In this document: positions 25,340-44,244 of the stretch, one piece after another
Layout: each line of letters starts with the position of its first letter
Numbering within the stretch: position 1 is the first letter of the stretch
Assembly: GCA_022539475.1 (NCBI GenBank)
Contig: VCMS01000407.1
Location: forward strand, 1 to 64,000
Reading direction: 5' to 3'
DNA length: 64,000 bases
Source of the DNA: Gracilaria domingensis
Taxonomy: Eukaryota; Rhodophyta; Florideophyceae; Gracilariales; Gracilariaceae
Position numbers and translations under genes: made by a program
The notes under the pieces: model-generated
What the model was told of the DNA's origin: nothing
Databases searched by the model: none
The model's input: the letters and a program-made list of their open reading frames with translations, nothing else

Positions 25340-25357
25340 TCTAGGTCGGGAGACCAG
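25340..25357 (-). promoter_or_regulatory. Candidate primer-binding site
   Basis: Directly inside the 5' LTR the minus strand reads (C)TGGTCTCCCGACCTAG. A TGG start next to the LTR is the normal form of a site complementary to a tRNA 3' CCA end; it would pair with a tRNA ending ..CGGGAGACCA. Which tRNA is unknown. Confidence 0.45.
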
Positions 25358-25898: not shown

Positions 25899-26304
25899 AG
25901 GAGACAAAGCTGAGGAGCAGCAGCAGCTGCAGGGCGAACTTTAGGATCGAAAAACGCAACTTGAGAGAGAGCAGCTCGAGTTCCAAGCCGATGGAGAAGC
26001 TAGGCATGCGGATGACCTGCCCACGCGCCCCCACAAAGCGATCTGACTTTGTTCAGGGTGTGGGATAATACTGTCAGACCCATGACAAACAGCTGCACCT
26101 GACGCCGCCGCACACGCGTGTAACGCAGCATCGCACGCGCTTTTGCCGAGCCCATCAATGGAAGCTCGCCTCATCCGTCACTCGCGCTACGCAGTGCCCG
26201 CGCCGGAAGGTTGGATATTGCGATCACAAACGGTCTGATCCGGAGTGGCGCATCATTGCGAGCTCAAGCTCGACACTCTTCGCTTTAAACAAGAGACTGC
26301 TGCG
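25899..26304. other. Host sequence beyond the gypsy element, no clear gene
   Basis: This continues the locus interrupted at 13545. The minus strand has a leucine-rich frame (..KFALQLLLLLSFVS) that would join the sequence left of 13541 once the element is removed, but no family was recognised. The Harbinger element probably begins somewhere in 26100-26250; its terminal repeat could not be found by eye. Confidence 0.3.
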
Positions 26305-27546
26305 ATGAATACGGAATGCTCAGACTCTTCAGAGTCCACTTTTTACGCCGAAAGAGATCGAAACATGGCCCAACTCTTCATGATCACCATGTATGCCTTC
26401 CTCATTGTCGTCCGCCACCTGGAAAAGAAAAAGAAAGCACGCACGGAGACACGCTTCCCTAAAAACAAAGAGAGGTTCGATGAGTTAACATCCGTGTACT
26501 CCGATCCAGACTTTCACGCCGCGTTTCGTATGAACCGGCAAACATTTAACCGCCTTTGTCACAAACTGCTGAAAAGCTCTTTCATCCGAGAGCGAGCTCC
26601 AACGAACACGCGAACTATTCCTGCGAGGACAAGAATCGCAATTGGTGTCCGAGTCATGGCCGGTGCAAGTGTTCACGACCTCATGCTCGCCTATAAGGTG
26701 AGCAAGTCAAGCGTTCACAAATGCTTTAAAGCATTTATTTCAGGCGTCGTAGAAACAATGGATCTCCCTGGAATCCCCGACACAGATGAAAAACTTGAAG
26801 AAGCAAGTCTCAAATTTAAGATGTCGAGAAGGTTTCCGAATCCATTGACTGGCTGTATTGGTGCCCTTGACGGTATTTGCGTACGAATTAAGAAGCCTAG
26901 ATCGTACGAAAACCCCAGTAGCTTCTTTCGTCGGAAGGGCTTTTTCTCTATTCCTGTCCAGGCTCTTGTAGACTCGTCATACAGGTTTATCGACTTTTCG
27001 GCGCTAGCAGTCGGTTCTACGAATGATGCGTTGGCTTTTGTTCTTTCGCCACTTGCAAAGTTCTTGGACGCCGGGAAGCTATTGCTTGGGTACTTTGTGG
27101 TTGGTGATAATGCGTACACACTTTCCAACTGGCTTGTTCCTCCCTTTCCTGGGAAGAATTTGGAAGCGTACGAGGACTGGACGAATTTGTTTTTATCGTC
27201 CATGCGCATTCATGTGGAACAAGCTTTTGGGATTTTGAAGCGAAGATGGCGAGTATTCTACAATGGCGAGTTAAACTATGATATAAATGACTGCGTGCCT
27301 ATCATCGCAGCAGGGATGCTACTGCATAATTTCTGTATCGACAACCAAGGAGTTAATGAATATGAGTACAGCAGCGAGGAGGTGGACGCTCTAAAGCAGG
27401 AGTCTGCGGAATGGCATGCACTCGTTAAGCACAAGCTCAGCGAACATGGGGGAGATGCGTCTTCGTTGGATCGGGGTTCGATACGCGATTTATTAAGAGA
27501 TGTTGTGAGGGAGAAGGGACTGCTTCGCCCCACTGTAGTGTGGTGA
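26305..27546 (+). CDS. PIF/Harbinger transposase (HARBI1-like)
   Basis: A 413-residue intact frame; ATG chosen at 26305 (GCGATGAAT), since the extra upstream codons begin only at a GTG. The N-terminal half has a helix-turn-helix (RIAIGVRVMAGASVHDLMLAYKVSKSSVHK, residues about 110-140). The DDE catalytic residues are visible: D in GCIGALDG (about 189), D in VVGDNAY (about 268) and E in HVEQAFG (about 305), with YENPSSFFRRKGFFSI between them. The family cuts the element at its terminal repeats and inserts at a 3-bp target. Harbinger transposases need a second DNA-binding protein, which is probably the convergent ORF at 29667-28087. Confidence 0.9.
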   Translation: MNTECSDSSESTFYAERDRNMAQLFMITMYAFLIVVRHLEKKKKARTETRFPKNKERFDELTSVYSDPDFHAAFRMNRQTFNRLCHKLLKSSFIRERAPTNTRTIPARTRIAIGVRVMAGASVHDLMLAYKVSKSSVHKCFKAFISGVVETMDLPGIPDTDEKLEEASLKFKMSRRFPNPLTGCIGALDGICVRIKKPRSYENPSSFFRRKGFFSIPVQALVDSSYRFIDFSALAVGSTNDALAFVLSPLAKFLDAGKLLLGYFVVGDNAYTLSNWLVPPFPGKNLEAYEDWTNLFLSSMRIHVEQAFGILKRRWRVFYNGELNYDINDCVPIIAAGMLLHNFCIDNQGVNEYEYSSEEVDALKQESAEWHALVKHKLSEHGGDASSLDRGSIRDLLRDVVREKGLLRPTVVW

Positions 27547-27623
27547 TGAAGTTGGGTTTAGGATCTGCAGATACCCAGCGGTGAAATGAGCGCTCCGCCT
27601 TTGAAATGACCTCAGTAGAGTGT

Positions 27624-28055
27624 TCATCTTCGAGGAGTTCGGCGATACGCCGTTTCTCCGAAAGAGCTGGAGATACTACGTCCACCGCAACATATTTGAC
27701 AACAATCCCATTCAGTAAACATAGCATCGAAAGCTGCCGTTTCCGTGTTTCCTCCTCGCTCTTCAGCTGTGTCTGCGAATACGAATTGCAAACGAGGCGC
27801 TCGCGCATTGGGCGAGAGAACAATCTCCGGTGTGATGGGTTGCAGAAATGATAGCGGTTCTTGTGAAGTTATGGTAGGACAATCGTCGCAATCTGATAAT
27901 CGTTGCGGGTCGGTGATGAGCACGGCGTTGCGGCGTGACGCATCGGCATCAACGACAAACACAGCGGGCGCATCCCGCGACGACTGCCCGAATCGAGACA
28001 GCACACTCTCGGCCACTGCGTAGTGCATGGACACAAACGGCAAAGGTGCATACAA
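27624..28055 (-). CDS. Small ORF between the Harbinger genes, unknown
   Basis: A 143-codon ORF with a protein-like N-terminal half (FVSMHYAVAESVLSRFGQSS, then APAVFVVDADASRRNAVLIT). No family was recognised. It lies between the convergent transposase and its partner and may be a fragment of an unrelated gene carried by the element. Confidence 0.3.
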   Translation of the reverse strand: MYAPLPFVSMHYAVAESVLSRFGQSSRDAPAVFVVDADASRRNAVLITDPQRLSDCDDCPTITSQEPLSFLQPITPEIVLSPNARAPRLQFVFADTAEERGGNTETAAFDAMFTEWDCCQICCGGRSISSSFGETAYRRTPRR

Positions 28056-28086
28056 TTAATCTATCTGTAACAATACTCTAGTTCTA

Positions 28087-29667
28087 TCACTCATTACCTT
28101 CCCTTCTGTCCCCCTCGTTCTCTCCAAGCATTGCTTCGAAAAGCTTGTTTATGGAGTTATACGCCTTTTTCAAGCGAGATATGTGCTCATCGTCCGCACC
28201 TCTCTTCTGGGCCTCTTGATACTTGATGTTGGCCTCTTCTAACATCCTCGTCACTTCCATTAGAGAGGTCGTTTGCTGTATTTGAGCCTGTAAAGAACTA
28301 CAGGCTGCCTGAGAGGTGGTCGATTCTTTCGCTTCCTTGCGATCCCTGTGCTTCTCCTTCTGTATATCCACGCTCTGCCTGAAGCTCCCCGCCACCAGGT
28401 CCATATGCGAACTTAAATTTGAAACCATATCATGAATAGCATTGTCACTGCTATCTCGTTGAGACTTGGGACGCTTGGATCCTTGAGATACATCACCTCC
28501 GCTAGAATGCCTACGCTTTCTACCGAGAATCACATCAATGTTCCTGGTAACACCCAGAGATCCACCCGCGTCGTTTGGTAGCTTCTTCGTCATAAACGGG
28601 CCGACTTGGCGATCGTAGTCAACATAGTCCAGCCCATACACACAATACGTTATGTACACGCGACGACCTAACGCAGACAGCTGGTTTTTTCGCTGGATTC
28701 GGTGGCAAAAGTCAATAAACGGCAACTCGCCATTGTTACCGGAAACTTCGTAATTTGCAACGGTACTCGTCCAGTTACTGGGTTTTTCTCGCCAAACCGT
28801 CGACAATTTCTGGCCCGTGCGCTGTGTCAACGGCACCAAACCCGGACAGAGGTCCTGGACAGGCTCTGGAAAAGATTCATTTGGGCAAAATGCGGGATTA
28901 TTGAACCTCGATGTAATCCGGTCCCACAAGTGTGACTTCTTGATGCCTATATCTTGTTTGTCTCGCGGGATTGTGATGCAGAGGTTGGAAATGTATCGCT
29001 TTGTCTGCTCGTCGTCTCTCATTAGGAGCAGCAGACGAGCAAATTCATCGTCACAGAACTCTGGGGTTTGTTTCTTGCCTCCTTCTTCGGTTTCCTTATT
29101 TGGTGGTTCTCTCATTGCGGACAACGAAACACCGCCGACGGGGGAAGATGTGGAATTCAGTAAATTGGGGGGGAGAATTCGCTCGAATGCCTTTCTCTCC
29201 TTGTCGTTGCCAAGCATAGCAAGGAGAACCACACTGGCAGGCATCCGTGCACACGTTGCGTGCTTTTTCACTTCAATATGCTGTGAAACAGCCTCTTTCG
29301 CTAACGACTCAAGCAAGGAGACTGGCATAATGGCACGTTCGACCTCGCTAAGGACGTGAAGAGCCAATCGTGCGCGCAACACGTCGCGCTTACCAGAGTT
29401 TGAGCGGCGAACGCGGTAGTTCTGTAGCAATTCTTTTAGTTGGGAAATACTTCTGGTAAGGATAAAGTCGTATGAAAAGTCGAGCTCTTCATTTACGGTG
29501 GTAAAGTGCATCTTTTGGTTCTTGCTCTTGGATGGTGAAGCTGTTGAGGAATTGGACGGTAAATGCGGTCTTGTTTGTTGTTGTGGCGTCGTCTTTGGGT
29601 CTTCATCGGAAGGTAAAAGGCCTTCTTCGGCGAGTTCCGCTTCTTCAATTTCTTCGTCCGAATTCAT
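28087..29667 (-). CDS. Harbinger partner, SANT/trihelix-like DNA-binding protein
   Basis: A 526-residue frame; the start was taken at ATG 29667 (MNSDEEIEEAEL), 30 codons inside the longer open frame, because the upstream part looks untranslated. Visible are an acidic N-terminus; a helical region SYDFILTRSISQLKELLQNYRVRRSNSGKR like a SAP-type repeat; a central segment CDDEFARLLLLMRDDEQ..HLWDRITSRFNNPAF resembling the Myb/SANT-like fold of Harbinger accessory proteins; a basic stretch GRKRRHSSGG, probably nuclear; and a C-terminal coiled coil. It would bind the terminal repeats and bring the transposase into the nucleus. It converges with the transposase gene. Confidence 0.6.
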   Translation of the reverse strand: MNSDEEIEEAELAEEGLLPSDEDPKTTPQQQTRPHLPSNSSTASPSKSKNQKMHFTTVNEELDFSYDFILTRSISQLKELLQNYRVRRSNSGKRDVLRARLALHVLSEVERAIMPVSLLESLAKEAVSQHIEVKKHATCARMPASVVLLAMLGNDKERKAFERILPPNLLNSTSSPVGGVSLSAMREPPNKETEEGGKKQTPEFCDDEFARLLLLMRDDEQTKRYISNLCITIPRDKQDIGIKKSHLWDRITSRFNNPAFCPNESFPEPVQDLCPGLVPLTQRTGQKLSTVWREKPSNWTSTVANYEVSGNNGELPFIDFCHRIQRKNQLSALGRRVYITYCVYGLDYVDYDRQVGPFMTKKLPNDAGGSLGVTRNIDVILGRKRRHSSGGDVSQGSKRPKSQRDSSDNAIHDMVSNLSSHMDLVAGSFRQSVDIQKEKHRDRKEAKESTTSQAACSSLQAQIQQTTSLMEVTRMLEEANIKYQEAQKRGADDEHISRLKKAYNSINKLFEAMLGENEGDRREGNE

Positions 29668-29919
29668 GTGGGCGACGTAGAGTAATATCACCCCAACGGG
29701 GTGACGAACGGAGTGCGCGTGGTAGGGGATCGTCGGGATTTCGATAGGGGTGCGCAACTTTTGGAAGCACCCCTCTGGTAGGGACGCTATAATCTGCTGG
29801 CTGCTCCTGCTTTGCAGTAACTGCGCAGCAAGGTTTGGGCTAAGTTGGTCTTGTTCGATGCTGGTATGGGTGGGGGGTCAGACGAAGTGGAGGAATCTCA
29901 AGAGTGGCTCACAGATCTA

Positions 29920-31556
29920 TTAAATACCCCAAACTGGCTCGCGGCTACCGTGAAGCAATCTACGTGGTAGCAGCGAGCCAGTTCGACGTAATACTAACCG
30001 CAAGGTTATTTGTAACGTCCAAAAGTACGTTTTGTTTGCGCCGCAGCTTTGCCGTAGTTTTGGTACCCAACCCCTAAGAGATGCTTTACTAATACCTTCC
30101 CAGCTCAACTCCTTCAACTCGCTTTCAACCATTTTCTTCAGCAAAGCATCTGGCCCCCCTCTACCGAAGGTGTGAACATGCCAAAACTGCCCAAGAGCTC
30201 CACGGGGTTTTTAGGAACCATGTATGGACCACCTTCCTCCGGCTCAATAAGCCCTTCCCCACTCTCAGTTGCGTCTTCCACCTTCTCGGCACGGTTACCC
30301 CAATTTCGGGTGAGCGACTCACCTTCGAGCCATAGCTCACTTGTTTCTCTCCTTGCCCACGTCAGCATGTTGTGATACACTGCTCGAGCAACCCCTCGAA
30401 ACTCGTCGCACACCTCAATTTTATGCTTCTTTCGACCTGTCTGCCCAGGTTCACCAGCACGTGTACTCCTATCTCCCTCCTGTTTCAGTGCCCCTCTTAG
30501 CCCTTCAATGACTAGATCCTTCTCTTCAAGCCTCTTTTTCAAAGCCGTACTCTGCTCTTGGGCGACCTTCACTAGAATTCCCCGAACCATCAAGTCCTCT
30601 TGTAGCGTCTTAACCTTTTCTTTCAAGCAATTCAGTTCATTTAAAAGATCAGGTCTGTTCATAGAGCTTGAATTCACACCAGTTTGGATATCTTCCGTTA
30701 TTTCCCTAGCTTCTTCGGCGACAGGCCCCGGTAATGCCGCAGGATTCGGTGTTATTTCGTTATCGGAACTATCCTCATGTGCCATAGCCTTAGCCACGAG
30801 AGGCTGCAGGCGTTCTGTGTCCACCCTTGGCACGGCTCCGAGCTCCAACTCCCGTGTCTGTCCTCCTCCATGGCATGGTATATCAGATGAAATGGGCCTC
30901 GTACGAGCTGCAACGGCCCCCGCTCTGAAAAGAGGGGAAGGTCGAAAAGTAACTCGTCTATCAGTTGTCTCTAGATTTCTTATTGTGTTTCTCCCTTGTC
31001 CGGACCCATTGCGAGGCATGATACGATTCATAGCGGCCCCAGTTCTAGAAGACAGGGATGGACGTGACGATCTTAATATACTAGGGCTCTCACGACTTAT
31101 CGTCATTGTCCCTTGTTGTCCAGATCCACTGGGCGGCGTAACCCGCGCCCCAGTAGCTCCGGTCTTCGATATCGGCCGGGGACATGAAGGTTTTGGTGTC
31201 ATACGAACCTCTTCGGTTCCAGTTGTCATGCCCTCCTGTCCTGACCCGCTGGGCCGAGTTACCTCATCTTCTTGAGGAGCAGAGACAGATGCACGATTTG
31301 CATTATCGGCAGTTGACGGCACGACATCGTTCGCTGATCCACGAATTCTTGACGCAATCCCGGAAGACGCTCCGCTGCGAGATGGGCGAGAGAGTCCTGT
31401 AGAAGGACGCCCACTGACTCTCTCCTTCGTCGAGGACGACTTCCGTTTAGGAAGTGCGGTGCTTGTAGCCTGATTCGTATCATCCGATGCTCTTCTCTTC
31501 TTCTGTCCACTCTTGTTCCGCTGCGTACTATTTCGCTTTCTCGGCGTTATACCCAT
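29920..31556 (-). pseudogene. Basic, coiled-coil protein with frameshift at a G6 run
   Basis: ATG at 31556 (MGITPRKRNSTQRNKSGQKK) opens a 472-codon frame ending at 30138. Just before its stop, after a GAGGGGGGCC run, the next frame reads PDALLKKMVESELKEL.. and stays open to 29920, so one base in the G-run separates two halves of what looks like one protein. The N-terminus is basic and Ser/Arg-rich with a repeated (S)GSGQ.. motif (about five times). Residues about 300-350 form a coiled coil (LNCLKEKVKTLQEDL..). The C-terminal region is unlike anything I recognise. Same strand as, and 180 bp downstream of, the methyltransferase-SET gene, so it is probably part of the same element. Confidence 0.5.
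29932..29983. repeat. Hairpin, 18-bp stem
   Basis: AACTGGCTCGCGGCTACC is repeated inverted at 29966-29983 with one mismatch around a 16-base loop. It lies between the Harbinger partner gene and the next ORF and could mark an element boundary. Confidence 0.65.
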
Positions 31557-31806
31557 GCTGTGGAGATAAACAGGGTAATGAAACGAAATTGTTGGGGAGG
31601 GGGGGAGGGGGTGGGGGGGGGGGTGCATGGTTCAGATATTCCGGGAGACTCCGCAGTTCCTGCTTTTTAGGAATTTGAGGTGCTCAATGGGTCGCAAATA
31701 TCGCCGTTACAGATGAAGAGCTCCAGTATACATGTACAACAACGCGTATTGCAGGCAGCTGCAACACTCACAAGCATATTTACTTTCTATTCGGTACTGA
31801 ACTCAT
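31557..31806. other. Short gap with G-rich tract
   Basis: A run of G8-G12 blocks (31588-31625, plus strand) precedes the coiled-coil gene; on its own strand this is a C-rich leader. No gene was seen. Confidence 0.5.
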
Positions 31807-34263
31807 CTATTGCTCCAATGTCAGAGCCCAGTCCCAGGCGTACTGCTCTCCGTAGTCGAAATACAACTCTTCGCCCCTCTCAATATCTCTTACTGCTCTA
31901 CAACGAAGTAGAGCATAGTTAGAAAGGTCTGACTTGAACTGTATCACGGACTTCGCTTCCACCACCTGCAAATTGGCACTTCGAGTCCTGTTTGACCGGG
32001 GCTCCGATAAATCGGGATCCCCGGCATGATATCCGGCGTCGTTAATGTAGCCCCCGATACAAAAAGGCGCCGGGACAATGTAGACTTCGCTCTCCTTTCT
32101 ATCCTGAGCCTGTCCTGGTCTGTTCCTCAGGTGCAGAAACTCCGTACCAGTCACAATGACCATCATAGAAAACAACTTGTACCGCACTGGAGTTGCTCCG
32201 AGACAGCCACTTCCATACGTTAAGTGTCTTTCCTTCCGGTTCGTCAGATCCGTGTATACCAAAGTTCCATAGAAATGACAGATAGTTTCCCCAGCCAATA
32301 TCTTATGTTCCGTGAACACCCCCATACCAGCACGGGGATGTCCAATCTTAGAAGATGCTATATGTAAGCGATAGCGATTGGCTTCAACAGTCAACAGCAT
32401 ATGCATATCCATAAGATTCAGAGCTCCTCGGTACTTCCCCTCCCAAAGATCTACAGTACGCTGTCCACACTTCTCGACAAAGTCCCAGTCCTTCCAGTAT
32501 CTTCCAAGGAACTGAGTAATATGTCCAGGCATCACTTGGTACTGGGGGTAACGAAATGGAGCCTCCCATTCAAGCCGACCTCGGTCCCGATGTGGAACCC
32601 GTTCATAGGTCGTTGAAGCCGCATCCACCACCTCCTGTTCAACCAGGATGTCATTCTTCCCCCCGCGAATAACTTCGGCCATAAGAGTCGTTAGATGGTG
32701 CTTCGCATGGCTGAAACATGGCCTATTCTTCTCGCACCCCAAGAACTTCCTATGCTTTGTCAGCGATAGGCACGCCATACCCGTAGAAAAAGTTCCCGCG
32801 AACATGTCCATGACAAGATCACCCGGTCTTGTGAAGCGACATATCAACTCCTTCATCAACTCCCTCGACTTCTGCTCCGGTCTTATGTACTGCCCACCTG
32901 GTACTGAGCTACCTGGCTCATGTACCTTCCATGTCAACCACTCCCCCGCCCTCGGTTTGGGCACCCGGTCAATTACATTCCTGTTAGCCGGGAAAGTGGA
33001 AGGAATGAAATTGTTCTCCTCCTCAAATGGAGTAAGACTGGCTTCCTCCGATGGTCGCAATCCACGCTTCACCCCATGAACGGCGTACTCCGTTACGGGC
33101 TGTATCCCAAACTTCCGTGGATTCCCTCCAACATTACTGCGATCCCGGATGAACACCAGTGGATTCGCATCCACTTTAAACGAAGGCATGAGTTCTGGTT
33201 TACCTTCGCTTCCAGCTTCATCTTTCGTACTCGCCGTTTCCGAAAGTATCCTGTGCCACACATGAAACTGTGCCATGGCACAGAATATAATGAAGTGCCC
33301 ACCTGACCGAAGCGCGGAACTTATTAAGTCAGCCGTACGGATCATGTCTTTCTCACTGAAGACATCGTGACCACTATTCCGTTTGTTCCTCTTCCTTCGA
33401 GTGTTAAAGGGAGGGTCTGTTAGGACAAGCTGTGTCTCACCCCATAAAATCTCACTCTGATTCACAAACGTTTCGTGTGTGTGCCTCAGGTCCTTCATGT
33501 CACAGTTGTACGCTACAAAGTGTGACTTTCTCATCCCCTTCCACACCTTGTCCATATTCATTCGAAGGAGACTGGATATCCCCTTCATGGGCGACTCAAT
33601 ACCAGTCTTTTGGATGTTGTAACCAGCAACCCGAGATTCATGCTCCGCAAGATTCACCGGCTTCTCGAACTCGTCGCTATCGGAGCTCACGAGGTTCATA
33701 TACTCTCGACGAGGTGGGGGTGGGGCAGACTTGGTCGAAGAAGGTTCGGCATTACCGGAAGTTTTAGGGGTTTTCGTGAGTTCAATATCAAGTTTCGCGT
33801 GAATGCCGACATGGAACCCTGCCGCATGACGCATATCCTGTATCGGTTTCCATAGCAACTCCGAAAACTTCTGAAATCGAGCAGGCAACTCACCGGAGTC
33901 AGAGCTAGATACCGTATCCATCCGTATCTCCGAAAACTCTATCCAGTTCCTCATCTGATCAACCCGTAAGCTATAGAGGCTATCGTGGGTGCATATGGTC
34001 TCGAGGTCTGTCAAAAACTCCTTAGCCAGTATTCGCAGGTTTGTATCGCATTCATCACTCAAGGTCTCCACCGATCCACTAGTACTGCTCTGTGGCACAT
34101 CCTTTGTGTTGAATCGAGTACTCTGGCTCGGGGGGCATAACCAGACTCCCGTGTCTCTAGCGCTGTATACTTCAACGTCTGCATATTCATGTAAATGTAT
34201 GGTTTCACCATGTGCTGAACGTTCGTGTATCCAAGATGAGCCGCAAAACAACTCCATGCCCAT
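31807..34263 (-). CDS. Beta-class DNA methyltransferase fused to a SET domain
   Basis: An 818-codon frame. Residues about 278-300 hold the amino-methyltransferase motif IV, LVLTDPPFNTRRK. Residues 480-512 hold motif I, GDLVMDMFAGTFSTGMACL, followed by LGCEKN. Motif IV before motif I is the beta-class order (CcrM and type III Mod proteins), which methylate adenine N6 or cytosine N4 in DNA. Residues 632-810 are a SET domain: RAGMGVFTEHKILAGETI, an FYGTLVYTD turn, GGYINDAG in place of the NH motif, and a C-terminal RGEELYFDYGEQY. SET domains methylate lysines, usually on histones. The ATG at 34263 overlaps the upstream ORF in another frame, and the real N-terminus is probably that ORF. A DNA- plus protein-methylating fusion inside a mobile element is striking. 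Confidence 0.8.
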   Translation of the reverse strand: MGMELFCGSSWIHERSAHGETIHLHEYADVEVYSARDTGVWLCPPSQSTRFNTKDVPQSSTSGSVETLSDECDTNLRILAKEFLTDLETICTHDSLYSLRVDQMRNWIEFSEIRMDTVSSSDSGELPARFQKFSELLWKPIQDMRHAAGFHVGIHAKLDIELTKTPKTSGNAEPSSTKSAPPPPRREYMNLVSSDSDEFEKPVNLAEHESRVAGYNIQKTGIESPMKGISSLLRMNMDKVWKGMRKSHFVAYNCDMKDLRHTHETFVNQSEILWGETQLVLTDPPFNTRRKRNKRNSGHDVFSEKDMIRTADLISSALRSGGHFIIFCAMAQFHVWHRILSETASTKDEAGSEGKPELMPSFKVDANPLVFIRDRSNVGGNPRKFGIQPVTEYAVHGVKRGLRPSEEASLTPFEEENNFIPSTFPANRNVIDRVPKPRAGEWLTWKVHEPGSSVPGGQYIRPEQKSRELMKELICRFTRPGDLVMDMFAGTFSTGMACLSLTKHRKFLGCEKNRPCFSHAKHHLTTLMAEVIRGGKNDILVEQEVVDAASTTYERVPHRDRGRLEWEAPFRYPQYQVMPGHITQFLGRYWKDWDFVEKCGQRTVDLWEGKYRGALNLMDMHMLLTVEANRYRLHIASSKIGHPRAGMGVFTEHKILAGETICHFYGTLVYTDLTNRKERHLTYGSGCLGATPVRYKLFSMMVIVTGTEFLHLRNRPGQAQDRKESEVYIVPAPFCIGGYINDAGYHAGDPDLSEPRSNRTRSANLQVVEAKSVIQFKSDLSNYALLRCRAVRDIERGEELYFDYGEQYAWDWALTLEQ

Positions 34264-34946
34264 ACGACCTCACTGATAGCGAATCCCAGTCGATCACAGT
34301 TGTCTTTGGAGAACGACGTAAAAGTGGGTATGTACACAGATGGTGCATGGTTCACTTTTCGTTTCTTTTTCGTTTGTTTCTTCTTCATCATTCGGATGTT
34401 GTCGTTCTCTCCCACTATGTGGCCGAGGTATGATAAGTATATAACGACCTCAAATGCGTTCACAGCTGTTGGTGGGATGAACACTGTCGTCTTCAGAACC
34501 TGCTTTCTCCTGGTCATGAAATAACCAACCAGGCATCGCACCGGTAGGTATATACCCATATCCATAGAGAGAAGGAAAAAATCGCGCAGTCTCTGGTCCT
34601 CATCCCCGTCCTTCTTGTCAAGAAGCTTCGTTACAAGATATCGCTGTTCCACAGGTTTGTTATTCACAACACTCTTTCGCAGCTGTTGCAGTGTCAAGCT
34701 CTGCAGGTTCTTGGAGTTAGTGGCCTCCTCAAACATCTTCCTTGCCTCCGGAATATCCTTATAGTTCTCGGCGCAGAACTCTATTAACCCTCTAAACCCC
34801 ACGTCCCGTGGCCGATCAGGGCCTCCATCGCTGTTTGCCAAAGCATCGCGAAGAACCAAGAAAAGTCTGACATATGCATGGAACGCCGGAGGCGGAGCAC
34901 TCATGTCGATAGGATGTATCTCCTCTCCAACATCGGTGGAATCCAT
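34059..34946 (-). CDS. N-terminal part of the methyltransferase-SET protein, separate frame
   Basis: A 295-codon ORF from ATG 34946, which lies 13 bases outside the inverted-repeat arm. It is helix-rich, with a basic KKKQTKKKRKVNH stretch like a nuclear signal. It overlaps the 818-codon ORF by 205 bases. Good protein-like sequence lasts to about TALETRESGYAPRA; in the other frame good sequence starts near SQSTRFNTKDV. The switch falls on a C6 run (ATGCCCCCCGAG, near 34135). A single missing base there, or a short intron, would join the two into one protein of about 1040 residues. On its own I recognise no domain. Confidence 0.6.
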   Translation of the reverse strand: MDSTDVGEEIHPIDMSAPPPAFHAYVRLFLVLRDALANSDGGPDRPRDVGFRGLIEFCAENYKDIPEARKMFEEATNSKNLQSLTLQQLRKSVVNNKPVEQRYLVTKLLDKKDGDEDQRLRDFFLLSMDMGIYLPVRCLVGYFMTRRKQVLKTTVFIPPTAVNAFEVVIYLSYLGHIVGENDNIRMMKKKQTKKKRKVNHAPSVYIPTFTSFSKDNCDRLGFAISEVVWAWSCFAAHLGYTNVQHMVKPYIYMNMQTLKYTALETRESGYAPRARVLDSTQRMCHRAVLVDRWRP

Positions 34947-35294
34947 CGCTTCAGCGCAAACAACGGAGGCGAGCCTTTAAATGGCGACTTACGCTGGGCA
35001 CCCCCGCTTTCGGCAGCTCCTCCCAGCGCACTGCCAGTCTCGTCCGTGTCCGTGTCCGCTCGGAGCGATAGCGTCGCGTGTCGGAGCGATAGCGTCGCGT
35101 GTCGGCCACGTCGCGATTCGGAGCTATTGCAACGGTCCCGTATTGTGCTAAAAGTCGCGGATCAAGTGGGTGTGAAGTGCTAGTTTTCTCTAGTTTGATA
35201 TATGTGTACGGCGTGTGCAGCGAAATCACTGCCGGAAGTGCCGGGAGGAGTGTTTTGGGAGGTCTCCGGAAGGCGCCGGAATGTGACCAGAACG

Positions 35295-35368
35295 TGCCCG
35301 CGGGCGGGGGGGTCCGGTCGTGTTAGGGTAGGTACCCTAACACGACCGGACCCCCCCGCCCGCGGGCA
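35295..35368. repeat. Perfect palindrome P1 (36-bp arms)
   Basis: Arms begin TGCCCGCGGGCGGGGGGGTC and end in GTTAGGGTA, with a 2-base centre (GG). I found no mismatch. Each half carries one TTAGGG next to the centre. Confidence 0.9.
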
Positions 35369-35403
35369 TAAAATCGCACATTTTTCAAAAAATCGTCCAA
35401 AAT

Positions 35404-35479
35404 GTGCCCGCGGGCGGGGGGGTCCAGTCGTGTTAGGGTATCTACCCTAGCACGACCGGACCCCCCCGCCCGCGGGCAC
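35404..35479. repeat. Palindrome P2 (two mismatches)
   Basis: Same sequence family as P1, centre TC, arms about 37 bp with two mismatched pairs (CCAGTCG against CGACCGG, and GTTAG against CTAGC). Confidence 0.85.
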
Positions 35480-35760
35480 GTTTTCGACGATTTTTTGGCA
35501 CCCTCCGGAGACCTCCCAAAACACTCCTCCCGGCACTTCTTGTACCCACTGCGTCACCTCAGTGAACCATCCCGGAAATTAGGGAGTGTCTGGAGGGTGG
35601 AGAAGACGGGATGGTCACCTCAGTGCACCATCACGGAAATTAGGGAGTGTCTGGAGGGTTAAGATGACGGGATGGTGCACTAAGGTGACGCAGTGGGTAC
35701 AGGAAGTGCCGGGAGGAGTGTTTTGGGAGGTCTCCGGAGGGTGCCAGAATGTGGCCAGAA

Positions 35761-35838
35761 CGTGCCCGCGGGCGGGGGGGGTCGGTCGTGTTAGGGTAGG
35801 TACCCTAACACGACCGACCCCCCCCGCCCGCGGGCACG
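35761..35838. repeat. Perfect palindrome P3 (38-bp arms)
   Basis: Starts CGTGCCCGCGGGC with a G8 run; the centre is GG and the arms match exactly by eye. Confidence 0.9.
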
Positions 35839-35859
35839 TTTTGGGCGATTTTTTGAAAA

Positions 35860-35957
35860 ATGTGCGATTTTATGCCCGCGGGCGGGGGGGTCCGGTCGTG
35901 TTAGGGTACCTACCCTAACACGACCGACCCCCCCCGCCCGCGGGCATAAAATCGCAA
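35860..35957. repeat. Palindrome P4 with extended arms
   Basis: Same core as P1 with centre CC. The inverted match extends outward through TGCGATTTTATGCCC and GGGCATAAAATCGCA. The arms differ slightly at the G7/C8 runs. Confidence 0.85.
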
Positions 35958-36371
35958 CATTCCGGTGCCTTCCCGGGACCTCCCAAAACACGCCGCCGCG
36001 CAGTGATTTCGCTACACCCGGCCGCCGGTACGTTGGCGCCGCTGTCCACGTGTATTGGCGGGAGTAGGCTGTACATGGAAGTGAATGAGTGTACTCTTGA
36101 CTACTATGCAAAGCATTTGAAGAGCATGATTAGAGAACGCGACCATTGCTCGCGTGAGTCATCATTGCGCGAACTCCACGACTCTAAAGCGTACAATCAG
36201 TGTGCGAGCGGCCACGGACAGGACACGGACGAGACTGGCAGTGCGCTGGGAGGAGCTGCCGAAAGCGGGGGTGCCCAGCGTAAGTCGCCTTTTAAAGGCT
36301 CGCCTCCGTTGTTGTATCGTCCGAGCGAGCGTATTGTTGATATACACCTTTCACTGCAATAGCTGTTCAAC

Positions 36372-37300
36372 ATGAAGCCAACTCGTGTTCGAAAGCGTAC
36401 GCAAAGCGTGACTCCTCGCACTCGGCGGAGCCTCGATTATTGCAAGGTGGAATGCGGGTTTCTCTGCAGATGGATATTGAGGATGAAGGAAAGGTGATAG
36501 TCGGGGAAGCGTTGTTGCATGGAATTGGAAGTGTTCTACGCCGCGAGTTGCACGGGAAGCAATTGGACCCAGGTCTTGTGGTGGTTCATAATATTCTCAT
36601 CAGTCGAAGCGGTCAGACGTTCTACCCTTACCGGGCGGAGGGCCTGGATCTTCCACAATATATCCAGGATCTCCGGACGGCCGCTCCTTGGGATGAGAAA
36701 ATGATGGAACCGGTGGCAGCCAGCATTCCGGCGTCGAAGCGAGGAACGGTGAGCGCTATGAGTGAGGTGATGACGCCGACAAGCCGCACGGAGCCAATTC
36801 GAAGTTCATCAACACCGAGAGGTAGCGCATCAGTAGCACCTCCGCGGGCAGGTCCGTCGTCTTTACGAAGCGGTCTATGGAGACGAGAGCATCCCCAGCT
36901 ACGAAGCGGACAGGTCAAACAAAGTCTACCTCCGCTACGAAGCCCACTGCGTCGAAAAGGGCTTCTCCTGCGATGAATCAGACCGTCGACACAAGGGGAT
37001 CTTCTGCGTCGAAACAGACGGTTCAGCAGGGGACGGCTGTGCAAGAGGAGGAAGATGAGATCATGAAAGGTCCCCTTCCAGACGCGGATGCGCAATCCGC
37101 GCAAGGAGCTGGTCCATCTGTACCCCAAACTGCACCAGAAACTGCGGAGCAGCAGGACGATGACGTTGTGCTTCTGTCCGCAAGAATGGCACGTTCAAGT
37201 GTTTCTGGCGAGCGGTCTGGAACACAAGGGACACCTACTCGGAGCAAGACGTACAGACGAATTCGTCAGAAGGTACCAAAGGTGAACCTCAATCAGTACG
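36372..37300 (+). pseudogene. N-terminal segments of the ParB-like protein, frames shift
   Basis: ATG 36372 starts a basic peptide (MKPTRVRKRTQSVTPRTRRS). From about 36455 the neighbouring frame carries MDIEDEGKVIVGEALLHGIG and continues to about 36870. From about 36877 a third frame carries a repetitive Ser/Thr/Lys stretch (ATKRTGQTKSTSATKPTASK) and acidic residues to about 37290. All three shifts on the way into the ParB-like frame go in the same direction. Removing GT..AG segments of 23 nt (36447-36469) and 47 nt (36854-36900) would restore the frame at the first two, so very short introns are possible; indels are as likely. No domain was recognised; it looks like a charged linker or tail. 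Confidence 0.45.
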
Positions 37301-37301
37301 G

Positions 37302-38393
37302 ATGGTTGTTGTTACTGTTGACATCACTCTGGTGGACACTCCGCCCAATTTACTCCGTGGAGTAAGTAAACGCCACGTTGAAGCCCTTGTGAAGAGTATG
37401 GAGGAGCGGGGGATATTGCAGTCGATGGGTTCTCCAGTGGTGGCCTTACAAGATGCTACTACGGGAGAGAGGGATACTGACAAGGGACGCCTAACGAAGA
37501 AGTGCTTCATTGTAGATGGTTTGCATCGTCTGAAAGCTATACAATATTTGGCAGGGACTGGTGCACCGAAGTGGAAGCGATTAGCCAAGTTTTGGCGTTG
37601 CAATCTGCTGATACGAAGAGATGGGAGGCCCATTGGGATGAAGGAATTGTTATGTGTTGCTTCGTACCTCAATGAGTCGACGAGTACCATGCGAAGGATG
37701 ATGTTTGCAGACAAGATACACTCTATAGTTAGTGTGGTCGCCATTCTAATTGAAGATGTTGAGGGGGTGACGCCGGCAGACGTGGATCCTGCAGAAGTGA
37801 CAGAAGTGTTGAAGGAGAGCCAACTGATTGGGACTGTGCAAGAGCGTCAGTACCTGAGATATGCCAATGTCGCCCTGCAACTCATGTCTCGTGAGGGAAT
37901 GCTGGCCCATTTCGAGGATATATGTGAGACTGTGAGTGACATAGGTCTCACACATCTGTCCCATACTCCGCTATATGTTTTGGATGCCGAGGAGTTTTCC
38001 TTCATTCTTGATTGTCTTCAGATGTTTCTATTGAAGGGCAAGTCGACGAAGACAAAGCAATGGAAAAGCTTTGAGGAGGTTCGAGGTTTCTTTTATGATA
38101 GAGCAGTGTCTCTGTTCCGCGCGGCTAGAGCAGTGAGGAATGAACTGAACGAGGAAGAGTCCATGGAAGTGTTCCTGAAACGCGAAGTCAGTCTTTCTGC
38201 TCCATCGAATGAAGATGACGTTGAAGACCCAGACAACAACGCAGCTGTGTATCAGTTCCTTTTGGGACAAGTTGTGAACTTCAACACTTTGCCGCGTGTT
38301 CGGAGCAGGACGAACTCAATTAGAACTGCCACGACTTCCGTTCAGAATCGATTGCGGACGATGCTCAAGGTAATTCCGCCCCCGCACCAGTGA
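37302..38393 (+). CDS. ParB/Srx-like domain protein
   Basis: A 363-codon frame. The N-terminal 90 residues fit the ParB N-terminal/Srx fold: a strand VVVTVDITLVD, then RGVSKRHVEALVKSMEERGIL (like R....v..L..Si...G.l), then FIVDGLHRLKAIQYL, the GxHR motif that forms the nucleotide/DNA-binding loop. The rest is helical and unfamiliar. In bacteria such domains act in plasmid partition, as nucleases, or next to DNA methyltransferases on mobile elements. Here it diverges from a methyltransferase-SET gene across a palindrome array. The ORF stop follows a C5 run, after which another frame continues (38410-38769). Role inferred: binding the element's own DNA. Confidence 0.65.
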   Translation: MVVVTVDITLVDTPPNLLRGVSKRHVEALVKSMEERGILQSMGSPVVALQDATTGERDTDKGRLTKKCFIVDGLHRLKAIQYLAGTGAPKWKRLAKFWRCNLLIRRDGRPIGMKELLCVASYLNESTSTMRRMMFADKIHSIVSVVAILIEDVEGVTPADVDPAEVTEVLKESQLIGTVQERQYLRYANVALQLMSREGMLAHFEDICETVSDIGLTHLSHTPLYVLDAEEFSFILDCLQMFLLKGKSTKTKQWKSFEEVRGFFYDRAVSLFRAARAVRNELNEEESMEVFLKREVSLSAPSNEDDVEDPDNNAAVYQFLLGQVVNFNTLPRVRSRTNSIRTATTSVQNRLRTMLKVIPPPHQ

Positions 38394-38409
38394 AGCAGTC
38401 CGTGACAAG

Positions 38410-38769
38410 AGGAGGACTCCCGCTGCTGCTGCTGCAACATCTGCCAGTGAAGAAGGGGAGCCGCGAAGAAGTGCACGAGAACGGGCGCAGGTGAGTTATA
38501 GGGAAATTGAACACGGCCGAAATCGAGGTGCCATAGAAGTTCTGGATAGCTCTGAAGAAGAACAGCGGGCTCCGCCGAGGAAGAAACGGAGAAAGACTTT
38601 CACACAACAGATGAGATCTACTCTGAACAGCATGACACCGGATGACCTGATGTCTCAACTAAATGAACATGTGCTGAGAGGAAGGTCGATGAAGGTTCAG
38701 TTCGTGGCATTGGGAGAGGGAGCGAATGCAGAGAACGCAGGCAGTTCTGCATTTGTGGATGACGAATGA
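38410..38769 (+). pseudogene. C-terminal segment of the ParB-like protein, shifted frame
   Basis: Beginning near the CCGCCCCCGC run where the ParB frame ends, this frame reads TSEAVRDKRRTPAAAATSAS.., an Arg-rich stretch, an acidic LDSSEEEQ, a likely nuclear signal PPRKKRRK and a helical end, with a stop at 38769. It looks like the natural tail of the preceding protein. A CAGGTGAGT at 38488 matches a 5' splice site exactly, so an intron here cannot be excluded. Confidence 0.45.
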
Positions 38770-38774
38770 GCTTC

Positions 38775-38889
38775 NNNNNNNNNNNNNNNNNNNNNNNNNN
38801 NNNNNNNNNNNNNNNNNNNNNNNNNNNNNNNNNNNNNNNNNNNNNNNNNNNNNNNNNNNNNNNNNNNNNNNNNNNNNNNNNNNNNNNNN
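38775..38889. other. Assembly gap (N run)
   Basis: 115 unknown bases just after the ParB-like gene. The true distance to the next ORF is unknown. Confidence 1.
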
Positions 38890-39159
38890 CTGAGGAAGCA
38901 CGGACTTGTCGAGGTTGTACCCATATGATGCCCACTGAACCCATCATGGTGCGGTATGCCAGGCTGAGACCGCAGGGATGGCAAGGAAGAACGTAATTTG
39001 AGCACAAGGACCCCTGGTCAGAGTCATTCACTTGCCGAGGAAAGGTGCGGAGCTGCTAAGTGTCTCGAATCTCAGAGATGTACACCATCTTGTTTCTTTT
39101 GGCACGCCTGCAAGGGCTAACTCGCCTACGGGCGGAACATTTGTATGCAGTATCCCGTA

Positions 39160-40117
39160 CTCGACCGACAGGTATGATGATGAAGAGGTGCTGTGGTGGC
39201 GGCAGGAGCATGCGAATTTGGGCAAATTTCTTCGCCCGTAATGCAAGCTTGAGCTAAGCAGAATGGATATTGCGTGCTTGATGGCTTTGCGACGGATAAT
39301 GGTGTCCCTAAATGGGAGGAGTTGGAAGAAGTTCGGGAGTTCGAGATGTGTCGGGGAAGTTGGTGGACTTCTTCGAGAATGAGTATGAAGCGATGCCGAT
39401 ATACGGAAAGGAGAGGAACAGAAGTCGTTTGTTCAAATAATCAACGATGATGAAGGATGGAAGACGGTAGCGATGGACCATTTGGGGAGAGTGATGTCGA
39501 CACGTTGGGGTACGGTGGAGAAGCCGGAGGATAATGAGGAGCTCAGGTGGGTTGTAAGGTCGCGTGCTTTACTTGATGTTCGAATGGTACAATTGCTGCG
39601 GCTTTGGGACTATGGACAATGAAAGGGAACTGTGAAGATGTACACTCCGAAAACTGGTGGTCGATTTCTGGGACGACGAGAAAGTGCAAGCGCCAGACGC
39701 TGCACACCGACTTCAGTGGTCTGGTTACGAAGGAAACAATGAATACTGGCAACCCCGGATACTTTGTAATGGCCTCTGGGAAAGAGGGCTTTCCTCTTGG
39801 GTGAGCGCTGGAAGCCATCAACTGGTGGGGATGAACAACCAACAGTTGCGAGTGATGTCGGAGGTGTATCCAGCGAAGAGATAATCATCCCACCGTACTC
39901 TGTATTCGTGGGCCGTGGTGATGTGACACATGCTGGAGCAAGTGGGAAGGACAAGGTGGATAGGCCCGAGTCTATGGATTTGCTGGTTAGATACCACATG
40001 TACATGGTACAGAGGGCTACGCACTACCTGATGCTGTTCATCGGGTGCGGGATTTCCGACCCACGTTTGTCAATGGTGACGAGGAGGAGGAGGCGGAGGA
40101 TGAACTGTTGTCCATAA
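39160..40117 (+). pseudogene. 2OG-Fe(II) oxygenase-like ORF, several frameshifts
   Basis: Pieces in three frames read in order: STDRYDDEEVLWWRQEHANL (39159); GYCVLDGFATDNGVPKWEEL (39270); SGKLVDFFENEYEAMP (39355); GWKTVAMDHLGRVMSTRW (39460); LHTDFSGLVTKETMNTGNPG (39700); and IIIPPYSVFVGRGDVTHAGA with RYHMYM (39885-40005). H.D in LHTDF and H in DVTHAGA, followed by an Arg, fit the iron- and 2-oxoglutarate-binding residues of the double-stranded beta-helix fold. The family hydroxylates proteins, nucleic acids or small molecules; the substrate cannot be told. At least four interruptions make it non-functional as sequenced. It lies downstream of the ParB-like gene on the same strand. Confidence 0.5.
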
Positions 40118-40559
40118 GGAGGTGGGCCGGTTGACATGGACGAAGACAAGTGGTCGTGGAGATTGGTGTGGAAGCGGACGCCGGTAGAACGAAGTGCTCG
40201 AGAGTAGTAGTGATGACGATTTGCCAATAATGAGGCTGCGAGCGCCTCCGAGTGGATGAGAATGAGATGATTAGTAAATTATGTGTGTCTTGCGAGTATT
40301 AAGAGTAGTATACTATTACAAGGCTATACATATGAACATAGAAAAGGTCGGCAGGCTGGTAATTGAACAAATGTCAAACGTCTTTGGTCCAGTTGCGTCT
40401 AATTGCAACATGCAATGCTCGGTATCGTTAACATCATTGGTGGCACCATTCAATTCGCAATTGAACATGTAGCGTCCTAACACTTCTGAAACTGCCACTT
40501 AAGGTTGCTTTTAAGAGAAGTATAATGCAGTTCCTTCTATGCGGTACTTGTGGCAGTAA

Positions 40560-41450
40560 TGGTGACTGTATCAGGAAAAATGGCAGAGGAACAGAGAGAC
40601 TTGGCGGAAATTTCACCAATACCTTGTCTAAGTTCATATATGCCAAGGGTTACGGTATATTAAGTTCCGTTGATGGAACGTTGAGAAGAGAAGGAGAGTC
40701 AATTCCAGAAGAAGTTGTGAAGTGTATGAAGTTCATTGACGAACGTGTTGGTTTCGGACTTGTCACAGGGGTGATGTGGGCGACGTGGAGGGAAAATGGA
40801 AGGACTCGGAGACTATAAGTTTGGTGTCTCGGCGAATCATGGAGCTTTCATGCGTTTCTCTGACGAGAGGGAATTAAGGGTGCATTCAATGATCACACCC
40901 TTGACCACACTGTTGACGGACTACTGTTCCTGGCAAGGGATTTGAATAGAGGCATGTATTGTGAATGATGATGACAAGGGGTTCGTGGAGACCAGAAGTG
41001 ATAGTGGCCTTCCCAATTTCGTGTACAACAAACTGTGGCAGTGGAAAGAAGAAGTGGATTCTGCTATTGGGACCTGTGCAGAAGATGGATGCGTTTGTTA
41101 TCTATCCGGCGATAAAAGTGCGAAATTGTGAACAAGCGATACACAAAAGGAAGCGGAGGAGAAAATCTTGTGGATAATGAACCGAGATTTATTGATACGG
41201 ATGACGTCGTGACGTTCGGAAGTGCTTTGAGCGACGGCCTTTGCACGAGGTAGGCGTGTACGGCGTTCACGTCAAAGAAGATTGTATCCCGCGTGGAGTA
41301 CACAACCTGTTCGAAAGCGTGGAGGATGTACATTCGACAATTATGTTGGTGGCTCTGTTGTACGGCTACGAGGAAAAGCAGCACGATAAAAACCACCATG
41401 ATCATAAAAGGGTATTGAGATATATACGACACTTTATTACTGAGATCTCA
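40560..41450 (+). pseudogene. HAD-type phosphatase, plus-strand decayed copy
   Basis: The frame at 40640 reads YGILSSVDGTLRREGESIPE and RVGFGLVTG, a Cof/HAD motif I region (DxDGT) in which the first catalytic Asp is lost (SVDGT). After a frameshift near 40770, DYKFGVSANHGAFMRF follows. Further pieces continue to about 41440 (GLPNFVYNKLWQWKEEVDSA; EDVHSTIMLVALLYGYEE), with several stops. The same order of segments is found inverted at 42441-41480. Confidence 0.65.
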
Positions 41451-41479
41451 TATCATAGCTAAGTATTAAAGGCATCGTA

Positions 41480-42441
41480 GCACTTGAAACAAATTCCAAG
41501 AGCATTTCTAAACCATTGACACTTGCATTTTCTGTACCCGTACAGTTCTGCCACCCTTCTGATGGTCTCATGCACGTCCTCCACCCATCAACAAGATATG
41601 TTACCGCTGCTGGATGTCTTCTCCCTTCACATGAACTGCCAGGGTTGCCATTTCATATAGAGGCCATCATTGGAAGCATTCCCGAAAGCAACGATTAAAT
41701 GTGTGTCGAACTGGGGTCGTTTTCAACCAAGGCTAGCGCCCCACTATTTTTCGTGAAACGAATGTCCCCTATGTCACAGTTTCATCTTGAGGGTACGCAA
41801 CCAGGTTCGGAAAGGATGTCAACACTTTTGAAATACCGGAGTTAACTTCTGTTTTCCACTTCGACAGTCCATTGTACGTGAAGTTAGGAGTCCACTGTCT
41901 TTCTAGTGCTCACCACTGCTTGTTGACGCTCTTCGTGAAGTCCGTGCGATTCATTTAAGGAGAGTGCAAGTCTCTCAAGTTCGGCTGCACATCTTTCGTA
42001 ACCTTCCCTGTCAAGGTCCTGATCAATTTCGGTACCATTGGATAATCTCACCCGTGCGCCTTGGTTTCCAGAGATGCCAAAAGTGTAGCCACCCAGGTGC
42101 TCCATGAAACTCTCGGCATCCTCTATATCTCGCCCAGTAGCAATTCCGAAACCAACGCGTGCGTTGATGTACTTCATGCATTTGACTGTTTCGGCAGGAA
42201 TGTTGTCCCCAGCTCTTTTCAGAGTACCGTCAACATCACAAATCACGGCGTAGCCATTTTCGAATATTTCGTTAGCCAGCTGCTGAGGAGTTACTTCTTG
42301 GGCTCTAACTTCCGAGTTATACATGTTTTGAAAGCTTTCGAAAGGGTTCGTTTTGCAAATGGGTGTGGTATACGAATGAGAAGGATGTGATTGATGTTCA
42401 CAAGGTGTTTCGTAGTATACAAAGAGTCTAAGAACGACCAT
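41480..42441 (-). pseudogene. HAD-type phosphatase, minus-strand copy
   Basis: The first 185 codons are intact: a variable N-terminus, then NGYAVICDVDGTLKRAGDNI (motif I with both Asp), GFGIATGRDIEDAESF (motif II) and GGYTFGISGNQGARV. The frame ends at 41884 (TRKTVDS). Sequence matching the plus-strand copy then continues in another frame (PNFTYNGLSKWKTEVNSGIS), and further on EDVHETIRRVAELYGYR near 41560. HAD phosphatases of this type remove phosphate from sugar phosphates. The Lys and final Asp motifs are not visible in one frame, so it is probably inactive. The two copies are tail-to-tail and clearly diverged. Confidence 0.65.
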
Positions 42442-42950
42442 ATACGGGTATTGTAGTACTGTTTTAAAACGTTACTAGGAGGAGAAGTTTTTGCATCGAT
42501 TTGAAGTAAAGAAAGGATGATTTAGTCATAAATTATATGTACGGGTTCAAGTGGGTAAAGAAAACTGTAAATATCTTTAACATGAGCTTAGAAATCAAGA
42601 AGAGTAAAACAACCTCCATTATGGGTTGAAACCCATAAAAGGTTTACCTTACTTTATACGGGTGCCCCAAGTAATGCAAACGCTTAGTTCTTCAGAAATA
42701 TCACAATTTTTGTACTTGTTTCGTTACTAGTATCGTGCACTTTAATGATATGGAATGACCATTTTCTATCTAGCAAAATCTTAGCGAATTATTAGTGATA
42801 AGGGATGTAGGATTTAAAGGGGCATATTTGAACCACAGAAGGACGAACAATATAAGTAATGTAATAGGAACAGGTCATTTCGATAAAGTAACTTTTATGT
42901 TTAACTATCTCTAAAAGGTTTACAACACCGAAAAGTCATGTTTTCTAACC
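42442..42950. other. AT-rich spacer, nothing recognised
   Basis: No open frame of note, no repeat and no RNA fold seen between the phosphatase copy and the oxidoreductase gene. Confidence 0.5.
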
Positions 42951-43853: not shown

Positions 43854-44244
43854 TGCAAGTGTTCGATTGTTTTTGTGTGACGATAAAAAGGGAAGATGGG
43901 GCGGAGAACTGCTGGGATAAAGAGTGATACGTAAGTACAAACGGTTGGTAAGCGCAGAACGGGAACATGGTTCACTTTGTGAAAGTGAGCGAAATGTATG
44001 ATATGTGATTGTACTGAATGAATGATAGGCCTTGTATGAGACGACAAGCCACAAAGTGTGATGATGTTTTATGAAAGGTAGGTGGAAGAGTAGAAAGTGT
44101 GCAATGAATGAAACTGATTTCGAACCTGAGTTGTAAAGTAGTTGTAAAGTACGAGTTACGGGGAGCTTGAATACAGGATGAAAGGAGCCATTTTGGCTTC
44201 ATAAATGAGGTGAACGGGTTTTATAGCTTCAATCGGATTGCCAT

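Follow-up and report, generated by a model that had tools for sequence, protein, structure and literature searches.

A probable Plavaka-type DNA transposon with a cargo of predicted epigenetic enzymes in the red alga Gracilaria domingensis

What brings a fusion gene for a DNA methyltransferase and a SET domain, a ParB-like gene and a gene resembling 2-oxoglutarate- and iron-dependent (2OG-Fe) oxygenases together at one locus of a red alga? The question is posed by a 64,000-nucleotide stretch of the Gracilaria domingensis genome (VCMS01000407.1, contig C407), which is referred to in full as the window and in whose numbering all coordinates are given. An original prediction, made from the letters alone, had described a mobile island combining these genes at 29920-40117. 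When the genome (77.9 Mb, 680 contigs) was surveyed for copies, the mobility of this island was borne out by common ends and target-site duplications, whereas its extent was not: copies align far beyond it, and the unit spans 5537-46601. This element is very probably a Plavaka-type DNA transposon, and the explanation that we favour as likely is that its module of predicted epigenetic enzymes may act for the element itself.

Extent and identity of the element

The boundaries were drawn from DNA searches made with the two margins. On the left, 39 other scored copies began to align at 5530-5540, mostly at 5536-5537, while on the right 36 other scored copies ended at 46601-46610, with 28 of these at 46601-46602. 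The ends, the transposase and an adjoining gene, here called gene X, are laid out as follows:

5537-46601, no strand: the whole element, about 22 kb without the 18,998-bp insertion at 11077-30074
5537-5553, plus strand: left terminal inverted repeat (CGTCTGT...), imperfect, with 13 of the 17 first bases equal to the right end
46585-46601, minus strand: right terminal inverted repeat, 17 bp, forming an imperfect pair with the left end
5563-5607, plus strand: subterminal 21-bp tandem repeat (GGCAAGGGTCGTCCAG...)
6860-10162, plus strand: Plavaka-type transposase, an open frame of about 1100 amino acids (Pfam PF18759, 1.5e-17)
10159-11076, minus strand: C-terminal part of gene X, which meets the transposase gene tail to tail
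11077-30074, no strand: insertion foreign to the element, 18,998 bp, bordered on each side by the 4-bp repeat TAAG
30138-31628, minus strand: N-terminal part of gene X, separated from the C-terminal part by the insertion

The terminal 23-mers, searched genome-wide with up to two mismatches, were found 563 times for the left end and 576 times for the right, while reversed controls gave 0. At 9-22 kb per copy, these ends would put the share of the family at roughly 7-16% of the genome. Some of the listed ends were matched into pairs according to their strand and distance, 30 pairs being retrieved and one on contig C38 making the 31st. Identical 2-bp flanks, never longer, were present in 18 of the 31 chosen pairs, which we read as a 2-bp target-site duplication. 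These 18 all fall among the 30, for which 5000 shuffles averaged 3.1 and none reached 18; the C38 pair lacked the duplication. A genome-wide check of copies, set beforehand as a possible refutation, found that the predicted open reading frames (ORFs) recur jointly in many copies and share boundaries, leaving the idea of a shared element standing. Just past the window, this element has one more right end in inverted orientation (C407:65911-69491), and a stretch of about 147 bp in the left part of the element (6157-6303) has a second, separate match in several other copies, as if repeated there.

Some observations at the ends weigh against this interpretation. The duplication was present in 16 of the 21 pairs no longer than 16 kb but in 2 of the 10 longer pairs, the window copy is flanked by CA on one side and AT on the other and so has no duplication, and in no single copy were both ends, the duplication and all genes demonstrated base by base. 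Mate ends predicted for C108, C164, C218 and C49, four copies outside the count of 31 pairs, were not at their expected positions. Since long pairs would span the central palindromes described below, the absent duplications are likely to stem from misjoins during assembly. The broader alternative, that the family is a segmental duplication or an assembly artefact throughout, draws on the same long pairs, which suggest that some joins at palindromes were made by the assembler, and on N gaps and frameshifts in several copies. We find this barely credible: hundreds of sites spread over many contigs share sharp ends, their flanks differ and 2-bp duplications are present, and these ends and duplications refute it at the level of the whole family.

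The identity of the element as a transposon of this type comes from the ORF at 6860-10162, which scored 64.3 bits against PF18759 (Plavaka), for which the cut-off is 26.3. The transposase was found at 42 places including the window (42 of 1782 candidates scored), and 37 of the 41 others lacked an inner stop; here and below, place counts from protein searches are lower bounds, as only the best candidates were scored. Between the second catalytic D and the last catalytic E, Plavaka transposases are described as having a C(2)C motif followed by H(3-4)H (PMC12730594). In the 1099 amino acids of the window protein, a single CxxC at residue 465 is followed by a single H(3)H at 743. KDZ was also considered as the identity of this transposase and was dropped, as Pfam gave Plavaka, which is kept apart from KDZ in PMC12730594. 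The same source describes PlavakaA as having a 2-bp duplication and TGT..ACA ends, and PlavakaB as having a duplication of 2 or 3 bp and CATCA..TGATG ends. The termini here (CGTCT..AGACG) match neither, and the element is therefore not placed in either group. That a transposase of Plavaka type moves the element is well supported.

Gene X, which is split in the window, occurs in many other copies in open frames of about 820-870 amino acids. Its segment was found at no fewer than 116 places (116 of 704 candidates scored), and in 24 of the 41 non-window transposase copies a listed gene X lies tail to tail within 100 bp. Copy C465 is continuous across 11076/30075 with a 4-bp TAAG overlap, from which it follows that the 18,998 bp were inserted in the window copy.

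The cargo genes and their arrangement

The original prediction had described gene sets that diverge on either side of a palindrome array, and this arrangement was recovered, with the motifs that it had listed (DPPF, FAGTFSTG, GLHR, HTD and VTHAGA) all located:

31807-34946, minus strand: DNA methyltransferase-SET gene, frameshifted here into ORFs 34059-34946 and 31807-34263
32716-33432, minus strand: beta-class N6/N4 DNA methyltransferase domain (Pfam PF01555, 1.2e-15)
31849-32328, minus strand: SET domain (Pfam PF00856, 2e-7)
34959-35051, minus strand: 93-bp sequence upstream of the methyltransferase gene, with an inverted copy upstream of the ParB gene; present at 30 of 30 methyltransferase loci
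35234-36002, no strand: central GC-rich palindrome array, made of inverted repeats between the two divergent genes
36221-36313, plus strand: second occurrence of the 93-bp sequence, here ahead of the ParB gene; present at 24 of 30 ParB loci
36363-40056, plus strand: ParB-like/2OG-like fusion gene, broken in the window; a 1240-amino-acid frame in copy C69
37296-37574, plus strand: ParB-like domain, with the GLHR motif at 37518-37529 (phrog_3264, 0.0017)
39703-39931, plus strand: 2OG-Fe oxygenase-like core, with HxD at 39703-39711, VTHAGA from 39923 and the distal His at 39929-39931

The N6_N4_Mtase and SET matches fall within one ORF (31807-34260, minus strand) and both exceed the Pfam cut-offs, which upholds these two assignments; the SET match is complete (PF00856 positions 1-105 of 105; 31.8 bits, cut-off 22.4). 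In copy L003 the fusion is a single frame of 1055 amino acids, about 240 amino acids longer at the N terminus than the window ORF. Motif IV, DPPF (33406-33417), precedes motif I, FAGTFSTG (32779-32802), which is the order of the beta class. Across 30 loci, DPPF is intact in 28 and DMFAGTFSTG in 25, the remaining five having one substitution each. Sequence relatives of the methyltransferase include phrog_67 (1.9e-23) and 75 phage records, and its solved relatives over motif I are DpnA, CcrM and MboIIA. We take these three, and the CcrM and PRK11524 models of NCBIfam, to be adenine-specific, and N6-adenine would thus be a likelier product than N4-cytosine. The methyltransferase is of prokaryotic type, and its activity on DNA is probable.

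The methyltransferase-SET protein gave 56 matches at 55 or more places including the window (55 of 1029 candidates scored), and its methyltransferase motif pattern, with up to three mismatches, has 198 copies in the genome. Pairwise ratios of nonsynonymous to synonymous substitution (dN/dS) among 30 copies were about 0.54 in the N-terminal part and lower in the two domains, at about 0.33-0.36 in the methyltransferase and 0.36-0.37 in SET, the pairs not being independent and the 30 loci being the best-scoring copies. In the copies compared, the methyltransferase and SET domains look to be under constraint.

Because the nearest families of the methyltransferase are those of phages, an endogenised virus or virus-derived element has to be considered. 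The long intron-free frames would also suit such an origin, and SET and methyltransferase genes occur in large viruses. We nonetheless regard a viral origin as very unlikely. No IMG/VR contig related to the three queries was found in a search that detects close relatives only, and no phage record was related to the ParB-2OG part. Among the scanned element ORFs no capsid or viral polymerase family rose above the cut-off (Herpes_UL32, at 0.72, is at chance level), and the transposase, short inverted ends and 2-bp duplications suit a DNA transposon.

The ParB-like and 2OG-Fe-like sequences had been predicted as separate ORFs. This is so in the window, where a one-base length difference, additional frameshifts and an N run (38775-38889) interrupt the frame, whereas in L054 and L056 (at least 1175 amino acids), as in C69, both parts form a single open frame. 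The ParB ORF was found at 112 places or more, including the window (112 of 605 candidates scored). The one-base split recurs in 22 of the 29 other fetched loci, which are those closest to the window, and a match that covers the split form to its end occurs at just 28 of the 112 listed ParB places, which suggests that the majority of the 112 are fused.

Overlapping residues of the ParB-like region gave weak matches to phrog_3264 (0.0017) and phrog_4715 (0.083), and GmrSD_N matched this part at 0.13, below its cut-off; together with GLHR, these leave the putative ParB assignment weakly supported. The C-terminal letters of the protein, which we take to resemble 2OG enzymes, include an HTD that is kept in 25 of the 25 readable loci among 30. 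The oxygenase-like motif pattern, with up to three mismatches, has 245 copies in the genome, and the distal His is present in 99 of the 100 listed, zero-mismatch places among them, the exception being C69 with Lys. It is from these conserved HxD...H residues that the 2OG reading derives, and a 2OG fold for the C-terminal domain seems likely. Relatives of the 2OG part in prokaryotic genomes were sought by a search that detects close relatives only, and none was found; plasmids searched for relatives of the 2OG and ParB parts likewise gave none.

Several observations weigh against this reading of the cargo. SET domains usually carry the catalytic letters NHSC and GEEL.xDY; the SET domain here lacks the usual NHSC letters, the 30 loci having INDAGYH at that site, and it reads ELYFDYG in 4 of them and mostly ELYFNYG in the others. 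The matches of the methyltransferase to the CcrM and PRK11524 models lie far below the cut-offs of these models. ParBc gave no Pfam match in the ParB-like part, and the 2OG part had none in Pfam or NCBIfam. Its best match in the PDB was a nucleocapsid at a chance-level 0.36, and in hhalign comparisons seven cyanophage 2OG proteins scored no better than 42 other phage proteins. At E up to 10, no Pfam family at all matched it, TET/JBP included. The ParB-like and 2OG-Fe claims of the original prediction are thus upheld in their motifs (and, for ParB, in the weak PHROGs match) and not in Pfam profiles or, for the oxygenase, in sequence and profile comparisons. Raw dN/dS by sums was 0.94 for the ParB core, 0.29 for the middle, 0.63 for the linker and 0.76 for the 2OG part, values made unreliable by the choice of loci, the 30 nearest to the query, and by frameshifts that obscure the linker and the 2OG part.

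The position of the cargo within the element is regular. At 29 of the 55 methyltransferase places a divergent ParB gene is listed within 8 kb, and at 17 a gene X end is listed just downstream, with a gene X-methyltransferase spacing of 1.59-1.61 kb in 15 of these 17 copies. Distances to the element ends were surveyed on contigs to C63, which hold 39 of 100 listed oxygenase motifs and 29 of 100 listed methyltransferase motifs, against listed ends to C64. The oxygenase motif lies 6.5-7.0 kb from the right end in 23 of 25 cases (6.4 and 9.4 kb in the other two), 14 of the 39 motifs having no listed right end within 15 kb. The methyltransferase motif lies 9.2-9.7 kb from the left end in 15 of 21 cases and 6.6-11.1 kb in the rest; 8 of the 29 have no listed left end within 20 kb, and 13 have a listed divergent oxygenase motif within 15 kb. 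Distances as consistent as these imply that the cargo occupies nearly fixed sites inside the element.

They also bear on the possibility of nested elements, in which the cargo block around the array would be a separate mobile unit inside an ordinary Plavaka transposon of two genes. Among the checked pairs, copies that are shorter yet have these ends and the 2-bp duplication are indeed common, and the 93-bp inverted repeats flank the array. However, these repeats sit inside the block, by the gene starts, with the genes outside them, and the spacings from gene X to the methyltransferase (15 of 17) and from the 2OG part to the right end (23 of 25) place the block at one site. Nesting of this kind is improbable.

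A proposed role for the cargo

In the explanation that we prefer, a Plavaka-type transposon carries an epigenetic module that acts on its behalf. The transposase would cut and paste the element via the short inverted ends and subterminal repeats, with gene X perhaps serving as a TNPA-like helper. The methyltransferase would mark element DNA, more plausibly at N6 of adenine than at N4 of cytosine, and the SET domain would mark lysines on nearby histones. The ParB-like protein may bind a nucleotide or the central palindrome array, and this part could bring the 2OG-like domain to the array to oxidise methylated bases or proteins. Such a cargo would sustain the expression of the element, or its licence to transpose, in a DNA-methylating host; DNA methylation has been recorded in a red alga (PMC8566409). 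The genome surveyed here has 14 phycobilisome-linker matches, which mark it as that of a red alga; 4 are on contig C680, probably the plastid, and 10 on other contigs, and among 14 control genomes a cyanobacterium alone gave matches.

We infer the marking and unmarking of element DNA by the cargo from the predicted domains, from the constraint on the methyltransferase and SET domains and from the shared divergent control region. An anti-silencing or self-marking role is possible on this basis, though short of an even chance. A more specific and more doubtful proposal is that the element carries both writer (an adenine methyltransferase-SET protein) and eraser (the ParB-2OG protein) of its own DNA mark, expressed from one palindromic divergent promoter, as a phage-like self-modification of its DNA and chromatin that would alter its treatment by host silencing or by the transposase. 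If the enzymes do act on the element, it would offer a direct test case for N6-methyladenine (6mA) or N4-methylcytosine (4mC) in eukaryotic silencing.

The same enzymes could instead be passive cargo, picked up by chance from host or foreign DNA by a Plavaka transposon for which they do nothing. The other ORFs of the element bear on this:

40465-42471, no strand: two facing ORFs, longer in C69, one HAD-hydrolase-like and the second alike by eye
42954-44198, minus strand: ORFs for a protein of unknown function, a 396-amino-acid frame in C69, with an NAD-binding look by eye only
44251-44568, plus strand: C-terminal fragment of a ribulose-phosphate 3-epimerase gene (Pfam PF00834, 1e-25, positions 108-198 of 198)
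45024-46133, plus strand: ORF of 369 amino acids near the right end, with no family

The HAD-hydrolase-like ORF (41887-42471, minus strand) matches Pfam Hydrolase_3 at 6.2e-10; the ORF resembling it by eye (40465-40815, plus strand) has no Pfam match, and the ORFs at 42954-44198 have none above the cut-off. The epimerase fragment, which is kept in copy C69 too, looks like gene capture, and its presence beside HAD-hydrolase-like ORFs, all without an obvious role, favours chance acquisition. So do the size of the end pairs, 21 of 31 being below 16 kb and likely too short for all the genes, the 198-245 copies of the cargo motifs compared with about 570 ends, and the raw dN/dS of the ParB core and 2OG part, which is not low. 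Set against these are the dN/dS of 0.33-0.37 for the methyltransferase and SET domains in 30 copies, the retention of DPPF (28 of 30), HTD (25 of 25 readable) and the distal His (99 of 100 listed zero-mismatch places), and the common upstream sequence of the divergent genes. We judge passive cargo to be rather unlikely, and keep to the explanation of a module acting for the element.

The insertion that splits gene X in the window copy contains a tetrapyrrole methylase gene, a long terminal repeat (LTR) retrotransposon and a DDE_Tnp_4 transposase. The retrotransposon, presumably Gypsy-like, has reverse transcriptase, RNase H and integrase domains and direct repeats at 13544-14086 and 25356-25898, and we take the transposase to be of Harbinger type. 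The tetrapyrrole methylase gene among these nested mobile elements may reflect an assembly join or a composite insertion. Between the two 543-bp direct repeats, on the strand opposite the retrotransposon polyprotein, lies a 775-amino-acid open frame (14968-17295) with no Pfam match. Outside the element, positions 51807-51880 hold a transfer RNA (tRNA) gene with anticodon TCA, called a selenocysteine tRNA by ARAGORN and a plain tRNA by Rfam.

Relation to known systems

Parts of this element have counterparts in several described systems. Phage beta-class methyltransferases (phrog_67) and DpnA, CcrM and MboIIA share the domain and its motif order but have no SET fusion, and ParB-methyltransferase fusions exist in phages. 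Among eukaryotic elements, the fungal Plavaka transposons (PlavakaA and PlavakaB, CMCT clade) have the same transposase family and a 2-bp duplication (2 or 3 bp in PlavakaB); C(2)C and H(3-4)H are described for their transposases, and some carry a dioxygenase gene. From these, as described in PMC12730594, the present element differs in its red algal host, its CGTCT..AGACG ends, the absence of a TET/JBP match and its methyltransferase-SET and ParB-2OG-like genes.

TET/JBP genes are borne by the fungal DNA transposons Kyakuja, Zisupton, Dileera, Harbinger and others (PMC12730594). These too are DNA transposons, and they bear an enzyme believed to reverse marks on DNA; CcTET, a relative, is stated to act on 5-methylcytosine (5mC) and 6mA (PMC12730594). 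Their transposases are different, however, and the consulted passages of that paper report no methyltransferase writer, SET fusion or ParB with them; ParB has no mention in its main text. HarbingerS and MuDR transposons of Phytophthora carry SET histone methyltransferase genes, as here, but belong to other superfamilies, and the account of them in PMC12730594 mentions no DNA methyltransferase fusion. The Plavaka giant repeats of Amoebidium, as portrayed in PMC11244446, have intron-poor genes, reach 50 kb, usually lie beside a Plavaka transposase and include red algal matches; many of their genes are tyrosine recombinases, the passages on them state no boundaries, and the repeats are reported to be highly methylated.

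The original prediction knew of no described eukaryotic element with this combination. No description of this combination of enzymes was found in searches of open-licence literature, outside which most subscription papers lie, and to that extent the claim holds; it does not extend to the broader notion, as transposons with epigenetic enzymes are already known. What appears to be new here is a cargo of methyltransferase-SET and ParB-like/oxygenase-like genes in a red-algal element of Plavaka type.

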